A stretch of 33,165 nt of DNA from an uncultured Clostridia bacterium (GTDB lineage Bacteria > Bacillota > Clostridia > Oscillospirales > QAKW01): contig CANQVN010000006.1 of assembly GCA_947627315.1 (NCBI GenBank), positions 1 through 33,165 on the forward strand, in the 5' to 3' direction. Positions 6,552-10,022 of the stretch are shown piece by piece; the stretch's first letter is position 1; every line of letters begins with the position of its first letter. A program made the position numbers and the translations under genes. The notes beneath the pieces are model-generated. The model saw only the letters and a program-made list of their open reading frames with translations. It was not told where the DNA came from and made no database searches.

Positions 6552-6576
6552 AGGCAGGGATAACCCCTGCCTTTTT
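6552..6576 (+). terminator. Rho-independent terminator
   Basis: AGGCAGGG-ATAAC-CCCTGCCT followed by TTTT. Confidence 0.85.
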
Positions 6577-6603: not shown

Positions 6604-7757
6604 ATGGAAAATCCGAAGCTTTTGCCCGAGCTAAGGTTTACGCCCGCCGTGTTTGCGGTAAAGGACGAGTATCAGATAATAGTTCTCGCCCGCGCGGAAA
6701 TCGTGTTCTGGGTCACGGTAAACGGAAAGGAGTATTACGACTGGTCAAGCGGGGTATTGCGCTCCGCCGGCTCGCCCCACCGCGTATCGGTGCCGATGAG
6801 CGAGCTTGACGCCGCGCGGGAATACACCGTTCACTACCGCAGGATGGTAGACAGACTTATCGCCTTTTCAACGACCGAGGAGGTGCAAAGCGCGACCTAT
6901 CCCTTTAAGCCGGTAGACCCGAACGGGGATATCAGGCTCTGTCAGGTGGCGGACGTGCTTGCGGTAAAAACGTTCGACAATCTTTCAAATCCCATGAACG
7001 CGGGCGACTTTTTCGGCGAAAATCTCGATCTTCTGGTGTTGAACGGCAACATACAGAACAACAGCGAGCAGACCTTCAAGTTCGACTTTATATACAGGTT
7101 CTGCGACAGACTGGCGCACGGCAACATTCCGATTGTGTTCTCCCGCGGCGAACGCGATATGCGCGGCGCGGCGGCGGAGCTTATGGAGTATTACACGCCG
7201 ACCGACCGCGGGGTAAGCTACTATTCCTTCCGACTTGGCAGTCTCTGGGGACTTGTTCTTGACGCGGCAGAGGATAAGGACGACAGCTGCCCCGAATACG
7301 GGTTTACAAACTGCTGTCACGAGTTTCGGCTTCAGGAGACAAGGTGGCTGCAAAGCGTTATCGACAACGCCCGAAACGAGTATGCCGCGCCGGGCGTGAA
7401 ATACAGGCTTGTCATATCCACAGCCCGTTTTTCTACACACAGGACGCGCCGTATGACATTGAACAGCCGCTTTATACAAAGTGGTGCGAGATGTTAAAGA
7501 AGCATATAAAGCCGCACCTGATGCTGTCGGGTCAGCTGTGCCGCGCCGTCATCGCCCCTGTCGGCGGCGAGCTTGACAGCAAGGGTCAGCCCTGCCCTGC
7601 CGTCATCAGCGGCGAATATATAAGAAACGAGAAAAACAAGAAAATAGACTATCTCGGCGCGGCGGTAACGCTCGCCGGCGATAAAATCAGAATAGATATC
7701 ACAAACAAAGACCGTAATGCGGTAAAAACCGAAATAATAGACGTCATGGAGGTATAA
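6604..7757 (+). pseudogene. Metallophosphoesterase paralog A: frameshifted and lacking most metal-binding residues
   Basis: ORF 6604..7497 aligns to the N-terminal ~75% of the downstream paralog. ORF 7344..7757 in another frame continues the alignment (HSPFFYTQDAPYDIEQPLYTKW...GGELDSKGQPCP). Frame break near 7417-7420. Confidence 0.85.
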
Positions 7758-7758
7758 T

Positions 7759-8889
7759 ATGAAAAACACGTCACATCTTCCCGAGCTTCGCACCGCGCCC
7801 GCAGTGTTCGCGGTAAAGGACGAATATCAGATAATGGCGATTTCCCGGTCTGAAATCCTTTTCTGCGTCACGGTAAACGGAGTGGACTATTACGACCATA
7901 CAAACGGCATCATCCGCTCCGCCATGTACGCCCACCGCGTGTCTGTTCCGATGAGCGAGCTTGACGCCGCGGGCGAGTATACCGTAAGCTACCGCAGGAT
8001 TATAGACAGGCTTCCCTATTTTTCGACGACGGAGGAGCCGGTGAGCCAGACCTATAAGTTTAAGCCCCTGCCGAAAGAGGGCGACATTAAAATCTACCAC
8101 CTGTCCGACACGCACGGTCACTTTACCATGCCGGCGCAGGCGGGCGAGTTTTTCGGGGATAATATCGACCTTTTGATACTCAACGGCGACATTCCCGACC
8201 ACAGCGGCAACGTCCGTAATTTCGACCTTATATATAGGCTGTGCGAGGCGATAACGGGAGGAGAGCGCCCGATAGTTTTCTCCCGCGGCAACCACGACAC
8301 GCGCGGCATATTCGCCGAAAAGCTGGCAGACTACACGCCGACCGAAAACGGACATTCGTATTTCACCTTCCGCCTCGGTCGAATCTGGGGTATCGTTATG
8401 GACACGGGCGAGGATAAGCCGGACGACCACGAGGCATACGGTCACACCAACGCCTGCCACCAGTTCAGGCTGGAGGAGACGCGCTATCTTGAAAAAATCA
8501 TAGAAAACGCCGATAAGGAATACGCCGCCCCCGGCGTCCAGTACCGGCTTGTCATCGTACATAACCCCTTCACCCTCACCCTCTCCCCGCCCTTTGACAT
8601 AGAACAGCCGCTTTATAAAAAGTGGGCGGATATGCTCAAAGAGACGGTAAAGCCGCAGGCGATGATAGTGGGGCATATCCACCAGACAGGCATAAGCCCG
8701 ATAGGCGGAAAGTGGGACAGCAAGGGTCAGCCATGCCCAGTCATTTCCGCATCAAAGCCGACAAAAGTAGACGGGCACAGCGATCACGTCGGCACGGCTT
8801 TCACCCTGTCGGGAGATAAAATGAAGGTGGAATTTACCGACGGAGAGCATACCGTGCTTGAAAGCGCCACGCTTGATTTGATTAAATAA
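7759..8889 (+). CDS. Metallophosphoesterase (calcineurin-like) with N-terminal beta-type domain, intact paralog B
   Basis: Motif series LSDTHGH, NGDI, GNHD, VHNPF, GHIH. Confidence 0.92.
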   Translation: MKNTSHLPELRTAPAVFAVKDEYQIMAISRSEILFCVTVNGVDYYDHTNGIIRSAMYAHRVSVPMSELDAAGEYTVSYRRIIDRLPYFSTTEEPVSQTYKFKPLPKEGDIKIYHLSDTHGHFTMPAQAGEFFGDNIDLLILNGDIPDHSGNVRNFDLIYRLCEAITGGERPIVFSRGNHDTRGIFAEKLADYTPTENGHSYFTFRLGRIWGIVMDTGEDKPDDHEAYGHTNACHQFRLEETRYLEKIIENADKEYAAPGVQYRLVIVHNPFTLTLSPPFDIEQPLYKKWADMLKETVKPQAMIVGHIHQTGISPIGGKWDSKGQPCPVISASKPTKVDGHSDHVGTAFTLSGDKMKVEFTDGEHTVLESATLDLIK

Positions 8890-8894
8890 ACGTT

Positions 8895-8926
8895 CCCCGC
8901 GCGGCGTTTGCCGCGCGGGGTGTCTT
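8895..8926 (+). terminator. Rho-independent terminator
   Basis: CCCCGCGCGGC-GTTT-GCCGCGCGGGG followed by TGTCTTTTT. Confidence 0.88.
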
Positions 8927-8965
8927 TTTCTCAGCCTTTTTCAATCGGCTTATTGTATATGGGGC

Positions 8966-9127: not shown

Positions 9128-9211
9128 TCATTTTATGTCCGAAAGCCGCTCGGCAAGCGATTTTGTGAGAGCCCTGTCCCGCTCGAACATTTTTCTGTAA
9201 TTGTCTATCAC
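9128..9211 (-). pseudogene. Possible 3' remnant of a minus-strand gene
   Basis: Minus-strand frame reads ...VIDNYRKMFERDRALTKSLAERLSDIK-stop, with protein-like composition. Interrupted upstream by an in-frame stop near the junction with the LRR/SLH fragment. Confidence 0.3.
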
Positions 9212-10010
9212 CGCCGCGTTTTACGGCTGCACCGCTCTTGAAAGCATCGACCTTACCGGCTGTGACAAGCTCGGCAAGATAGGGGAGCGCGTCTTTTACG
9301 AATGCGAGTCGCTGACCGACGTGTATTATTCCGGCACCGAAGAGCAGTGGAACGAGATTGTGATCGAGGCGTTTAACGCCCCGCTTAAAAATGCGAATTT
9401 CCATTTTAACTACACCGAACCCGATACCCCCGAAATCGTGGACACCACAAAGATATTCTCCGACGTCGCGGAGGGGAGATGGTACACAGAGTTTGTAAAC
9501 TACGCCTACACATACGGATTTTTCAAGGGCGTGTCCGAAACCGACTTCCGGCCCCAGGCAAACGTCAACCGCGCGATGTTTGTGACCGTTCTGTCGCGAA
9601 TCGCGGGAATTGAGGAAAGCAACGACGTCACCACCAAATTCGCCGACGTTGAAAGCGGCAGATACTACACCGGAGCTGTCAAGTGGGCAAGCGAAAACGG
9701 CATTGTCAACGGCGTCGACGAAATGACGTTCGGCGTTAAAAATGACATCACGCGCGAGCAATTATGCACCATGATAGTCCGTTTCGCGGATTATATGAAA
9801 GTAACGCTTGCTAAGAGCGTTCCCGCGATGACCTTTGCGGACGACGCGCAGATAAGCAATTACGCGCGCGATGCAATAGCCGCGTATCAAAAGGCGGGCA
9901 TAGTAAACGGCAGCGTGGAAAACGGCGTAACCCCCTGTTCAAGCCCAAAGGCACCGCCACCCGCGCCGAGGCGTCTAAAATACTTACCGTATTTCACAGA
10001 GACTATGTAG
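9201..10010 (+). pseudogene. LRR (BspA-type)/SLH-domain surface protein fragment: 5' truncated and 3' frameshifted
   Basis: FYGCTALESIDLTGCDKLGKIGERVFYECESLTDVYYSGTEEQWNEI (BspA-like LRR), then SLH repeats (IFSDVAEGRWYTEFVNYAYTYGFFKGVSETDFRPQANVNRAMFVTVLSRIAG...). No RBS or proper start. The C-terminus leaves the SLH frame near 9931. Confidence 0.8.
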
Positions 10011-10022
10011 CATAAAAAAACC

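Follow-up and report, generated by a model that had tools for sequence, protein, structure and literature searches.

A frameshifted, ligand-less metallophosphoesterase beside its intact paralog in a Clostridia genome: probable remnant of a pseudoenzyme

Introduction

To our knowledge, dead metallophosphoesterases are known mainly from eukaryotes, with VPS29 and the B subunits of replicative polymerases as the examples. The metallophosphoesterase fold of VPS29, a component of retromer, acts as a scaffold and is not a functional metalloenzyme (PMC3101248). The B subunits of eukaryotic replicative polymerases carry an inactivated calcineurin-like domain, while their archaeal counterpart, DP1 of PolD, is active (PMC4996933, PMC7308368). 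Our literature search found no paper that combined metallophosphoesterase with pseudoenzyme, although this is not proof of absence elsewhere.

Here, we describe two adjacent metallophosphoesterase-type genes in an uncultured Clostridia bacterium, the first of which (copy A) has lost most of the active site that the second (copy B) retains. The likeness of A to VPS29 lies in the keeping of a metallophosphoesterase fold for protein contacts after loss of activity (PMC3101248). However, VPS29 retains much of its metal pocket and is not encoded beside an active paralog, whereas A is bacterial, lacks five of seven ligands, sits beside an active copy and is frameshifted. The polymerase B subunits and DP1 offer a dead domain related to an active one, and the ligand set of DP1, seven residues (D, H, D, N, H, H, H), matches that of B. 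There, the dead and active forms occur in different lineages, while here they are neighbors or are fused in the same genome. The cell-surface proteins ShfP/YvnB of Bacillus, with their FN3 and SLH fusions, belong to the same superfamily, and secreted relatives in our genomes that combine a signal peptide, phosphoesterase and SLH repeats are of this general kind. A and B differ from them in lacking a signal peptide, and the part of the ShfP/YvnB report that we draw on describes no dead second phosphoesterase domain (PMC11488536). Among metallopeptidases, inactive homologs have been described that bind their active relatives or regulate them (PMC11266112). As these have a different fold and belong to a different family, they are a precedent for the mechanism only.

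Results

Copies A and B are tandem paralogs, and A is frameshifted. The window that we analyzed, 33,165 nucleotides long, is an entire contig. The draft genome to which it belongs totals 1.53 Mb in 149 contigs and is 86.5% complete. Copies A and B and the hairpins that flank them are on the forward strand of the window. Copy A (6604-7757) is a full-length tandem paralog of copy B (7759-8889), and its final stop lies 1 base upstream of the ATG of B. The original prediction had called the two neighbors clear full-length paralogs, and their identity bears this out: 58-59% over the first 271 codons of A (6604-7416), which encode an N-terminal beta-sandwich domain and the first part of the phosphoesterase fold, and 37-39% over the remainder. 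A one-base loss relative to B at 7417-7419 shifts the reading frame of A. The open frame ends at 7497, and the homologous continuation, the C-terminal part, is found in a second frame at 7416-7757. As assembled, A is therefore missing its last 113 residues in frame, about the last third of the protein, and has the disrupted reading frame of a pseudogene. The pair is flanked by terminator-like hairpins on both sides. The upstream hairpin, with its T run (6552-6576; eight pairs, six of them GC, and a T tail; a consensus match only), lies between a DUF2344-type gene and A; the one 3' of B is strong (8895-8927; 11 GC pairs and a T tail).

B encodes an intact metallophosphoesterase of 376 amino acids. 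It matches Pfam PF00149 Metallophos (E 9.3e-13, 49.5 bits against a cut-off of 21.5) and has all seven ligands (D117, H119, D144, N178, H268, H306 and H308) as well as the catalytic His. We take its predicted activity, from knowledge of the family, to be phosphoester hydrolysis in the cytosol with two metals. A has no Pfam match. It belongs to the metallophosphoesterase superfamily by descent: a profile of active homologs from which A was left out matches it at positions 4-370, reading across the break (E 2e-138), and a homolog tree places it within the B family. Neither protein has a signal peptide. The N-terminal domain of B has no Pfam match, and no solved structure was matched by sequence or by profile search. 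Structure prediction of B and of the first part of A, from shallow alignments, gave a mean pLDDT of 48, with only the N-terminal beta-sandwich moderately confident.

Directly after the pair lies a fragment of an SLH-domain protein (9201-10012), with an LRR-like tail and SLH repeats and with its start missing. It is 70% identical to the SLH region of locus L049 of the same genome, and a one-base loss near 9933 makes it a second broken gene.

A has selectively lost its active site. We compared nine active-site positions in a family alignment, using a reference set of 14 sequences in which D-H-D-N-H-D-H-H-H is found in 14/14 at each position. The B type reads DHDNHDHHH and A reads DFNERDHQC. Six of the nine residues are gone in A, comprising five of the seven metal ligands and the catalytic His of GNHD. 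The first Asp is retained, as is the His of the HxPF motif (VHNPF in B; HSPF in the second frame of A, with its His at 7419-7421). The original prediction that A had lost nearly every catalytic motif thus holds for the six and went too far for the two survivors. The first metal motif (6952-6975) still has its Asp (6952-6954), but five residues inserted in frame (VADvlavkTF) displace the His, and Phe stands in its place (6973-6975). The predicted change to VADVLAV is present here, with a true span of 6946-6966 that is slightly wider than first given and with the Asp unchanged. The other motif changes are where they had been placed, give or take a few bases. NGNI replaces NGDI at 7042-7053, turning the bridging Asp into Asn; GERD replaces GNHD at 7147-7158, with Glu for the ligand Asn and Arg for the catalytic His; and GQLC replaces GHIH at 7530-7541, with Gln and Cys for two His ligands (GQLCRAV from 7530). 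A therefore lacks the complete set of seven ligands plus catalytic His that marks an active metallophosphoesterase.

The site is complete in all of approximately 50 standalone homologs from our order and class samples. Thus, the ligand loss in A is not a chance finding. Taking columns conserved in at least 13 of the 14 reference sequences as near-invariant, we found that A keeps 47/52 of those outside the active site but only 3/9 active-site residues (Fisher p = 0.0005). We repeated the comparison with 55 standalone homolog sequences, which in some cases include the same gene from overlapping loci, and A kept 22/24 other residues versus 2/8 active-site residues (p = 0.00075). The same test on intact comparison sequences showed no such bias. 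That the scaffold was kept while the ligands were selectively lost, as originally proposed, is upheld in both alignments.

A is found in one genome only. Three sister species have a single phosphoesterase at the syntenic place. This is the ortholog of B, with 68-71% identity to B, 48-50% identity to A and all ligands. The shared upstream gene order is presumably TyrS, an M23 peptidase, an M50 peptidase, a radical SAM protein and a DUF2344-type protein, as named by reading the open reading frames; in one sister species the contig ends inside the radical SAM gene. The original prediction would have given way to an ordinary duplicate had the sisters held A orthologs with intact metal motifs, and they hold only the B ortholog. 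The check that it suggested, a search of related genomes for intact ligand-less orthologs of A, gave none: no A-type gene was found in the three sister species or elsewhere in the family, in 394 genomes sampled from the order or in 391 sampled from the class (approximately 790 genomes). Found only here, and frameshifted, A is not an intact gene maintained across species. In trees, A branches just outside B and its sister orthologs, or with B (AU p 0.24 versus 0.63). A scan of viral contigs gave a single distant relative.

Two further loci concern B-like genes. A B homolog with 66% identity (L083:1850-2980, genome G384) occurs in a different family of the order and is far closer to B than are the other members of its order. 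Its short contig has no matches to the neighboring genes of the window, and horizontal transfer or a binning error is possible. Genome G496 has two adjacent, separate phosphoesterase genes (L161:3248-6054) with both sites complete, a tandem pair without a dead copy. Since both copies are intact, tandem duplication does not always yield a dead one.

A evolved under purifying selection. An ordinary duplicate, unselected since the duplication, would decay through random changes, with the frameshift as the first of many lesions. The presence of A in a single genome fits this explanation, as do its frameshift and the similarly broken SLH gene downstream. In a codon maximum-likelihood model, we gave A its own omega. 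Freely fitted, omega for A was 0.33-0.37 versus a background of 0.066, and this roughly fivefold elevation also suits decay. However, omega = 1 was rejected (p = 0.043 under one topology and 0.014 under the other), with synonymous sites so near saturation that the freely fitted values are imprecise. Because adjacent paralogs should have equal age, we also imposed equal age on A and B. Omega for A was then 0.10-0.27, and omega = 1 was rejected at p < 1e-14. There are no in-frame stops across the 383 codons of A, whereas neutral evolution simulated along a branch of 0.76 substitutions per codon, the shortest length fitted, gave approximately 7 (P(0) = 0.0025). All indels of A other than the frameshift are in frame, and its ligands were lost far more than equally conserved residues, neither of which is expected of unselected decay. 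The dN/dS check suggested for the part of A before the frameshift gave 0.34 or 0.37, which is not neutral; for A as a whole, the case against neutrality is weak in the free fit and strong at equal age. Thus, purifying selection on A was weakened but real, and A does not show the neutral evolution of a pseudogene. It has the hallmarks of a pseudoenzyme, with catalytic residues lost and the rest of the fold under selection. So A appears, from its sequence, to have been maintained as a ligand-less protein, and we disfavor ordinary decay as unlikely.

Another possibility is that A was constrained for most of its life and that a short neutral phase then removed the ligands and caused the frameshift. 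If A branches before the genus, omega at equal age is 0.10, and approximately 5% neutral time is allowed, with zero stops in approximately 4% of cases. Such a phase should hit conserved sites alike, but 90% of the non-ligand near-invariant sites survive while six of nine active-site residues are gone. In addition, some of the changes could not have come about with fewer than two base substitutions (from Asn to Glu encoded by GAA and from His to Cys encoded by TGC). We consider this sequence of events improbable.

The frameshift is recent. The stretches on either side of the frameshift have similar omega values (0.34 upstream and 0.30 downstream in one fit; 0.37 for both in the other), and therefore the break is late. 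This agrees with the original suggestion that A may only recently have begun to decay. A may no longer work; what was once a pseudoenzyme may have become a pseudogene, and in this strain the function of A has probably gone or is disappearing. The pseudoenzyme reading accordingly stands as history, through selective ligand loss and purifying selection, and fails to describe a present-day gene whose last 113 residues are out of frame. We consider it very improbable that an error of assembly or sequencing created the frameshift and that A still is an intact, working pseudoenzyme: equal constraint on both sides, a break of a single base, a draft in many contigs and a second one-base break approximately 2.5 kb away (near 9933) would all suit an artefact, but the break, at approximately 7418, is outside any long homopolymer, and none of the 74 genes of the assembly comparable with sister genomes has a frameshift. 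The assembly is therefore not full of indel errors, and pervasive indels are an unlikely cause. We also rejected programmed -1 frameshifting, as there is no canonical slippery heptamer in frame at the break and, by eye, homology changes frame upstream of the T run.

Active and ligand-less domains are repeatedly fused in this class. Fused two-domain phosphoesterases are encoded in the genome and genus of A and in two further families of this class. In 10/10 of those sampled in the class, domain 1 is intact and domain 2 is ligand-less; domain 1 of L049 was matched as two pieces that have the full ligand set only jointly. This recurrent fusion of an active with a ligand-less domain is a new finding of this analysis. 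Dead-domain patterns include, for this genus, NANENE, VANEGE and DGNENEH; for G251, DRDNREHNY and ELKNREHHN; and for G490, DKDNLDH. In a domain tree, A falls in the B clade, the dead domains of G251 are beside their own active domains, and those of the genus are with that of G490. These positions indicate that dead copies arose at least three times, the fused dead domains independently of A. Between G001 and G003, omega was 0.029 for both domains of one protein and 0.13 (dead) and 0.16 (active) for another; the case for purifying selection on the dead domains comes from these two unsaturated comparisons, two others being saturated. The fused dead domains of the genus are thus intact and maintained across species, as expected of pseudoenzymes.

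A shares the combination of Asp to Asn and Asn to Glu with the fused dead domains of its genus and shares the change of the catalytic His to Arg with the dead domains of G251 (two fused proteins). We asked whether the first combination reflected gene conversion of A from the fused dead domains and rejected this, as A resembles B much more closely along its entire length and falls within the B clade.

The doublets in the genome of A itself (L048:9195-12245, L049:5031-8882 and L049:8976-10529) and in sister species (L093-L097) are secreted proteins in which a conserved ligand-less domain comes after an intact one. SLH repeats are present in one of them, and L049 also contains part of another gene of this kind. 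The active-then-dead doublets of the two other families are at L084:710-4135, L085:3334-9171 and L162:2342-6646. In the dead domain, the catalytic His is replaced by Arg in L084 and L085, and the first His is replaced by Lys in L162.

Discussion

We think it likely that A is what is left of a metallophosphoesterase pseudoenzyme that had a non-catalytic job, most likely ligand binding or contact with B, and that was recently truncated. In the pathway we propose, a tandem duplication of the gene that is now B would have taken place when the lineage of this species arose, or earlier. B would have kept its two-metal site and would remain an active cytosolic phosphoesterase. A would have lost the site while retaining its fold and surfaces, with selection maintaining a non-catalytic job. 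Most likely, A bound the same phosphate-ester ligand without cutting it or made a regulatory or structural contact with B, and it would have been translated immediately before B from a shared transcript. Within the pocket, two of the replacements, catalytic His to Arg and Asn to Glu, could compensate for the missing metal charges. The recent one-base loss would then have truncated A, with the partner probably lost or being lost in the strain.

The A/B pair looks like an unfused version of the active-plus-dead pairing. The recurrent fusion of active with dead domains is indirect support for A as a partner of B, a role that we consider plausible. There are points against the pseudoenzyme reading. 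Its long maintenance is inferred from one sequence, with no intact ortholog of A in three sisters or approximately 790 genomes; A is frameshifted in the sole genome that has it; the dead domain is second in the fused proteins, but A is first; and the tandem pair of G496 has no dead copy.

It is also conceivable, although we offer this only tentatively, that this class of Clostridia-like bacteria repeatedly evolves active-plus-dead doublets, both fused and secreted and, as with A and B, unfused. The dead module would then be a conserved ligand-binding or allosteric partner in which side chains replace the charges of the metals.

A bacterial dead copy beside an active one, together with the fused doublets, provides a small expressible system for the role of a ligand-less phosphoesterase domain. 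The several independent origins allow a search for convergent replacements, such as Asp to Asn with Asn to Glu, or the catalytic His to Arg. The case also cautions against taking every ligand-less, frameshifted copy for an ordinary duplicate in decay.
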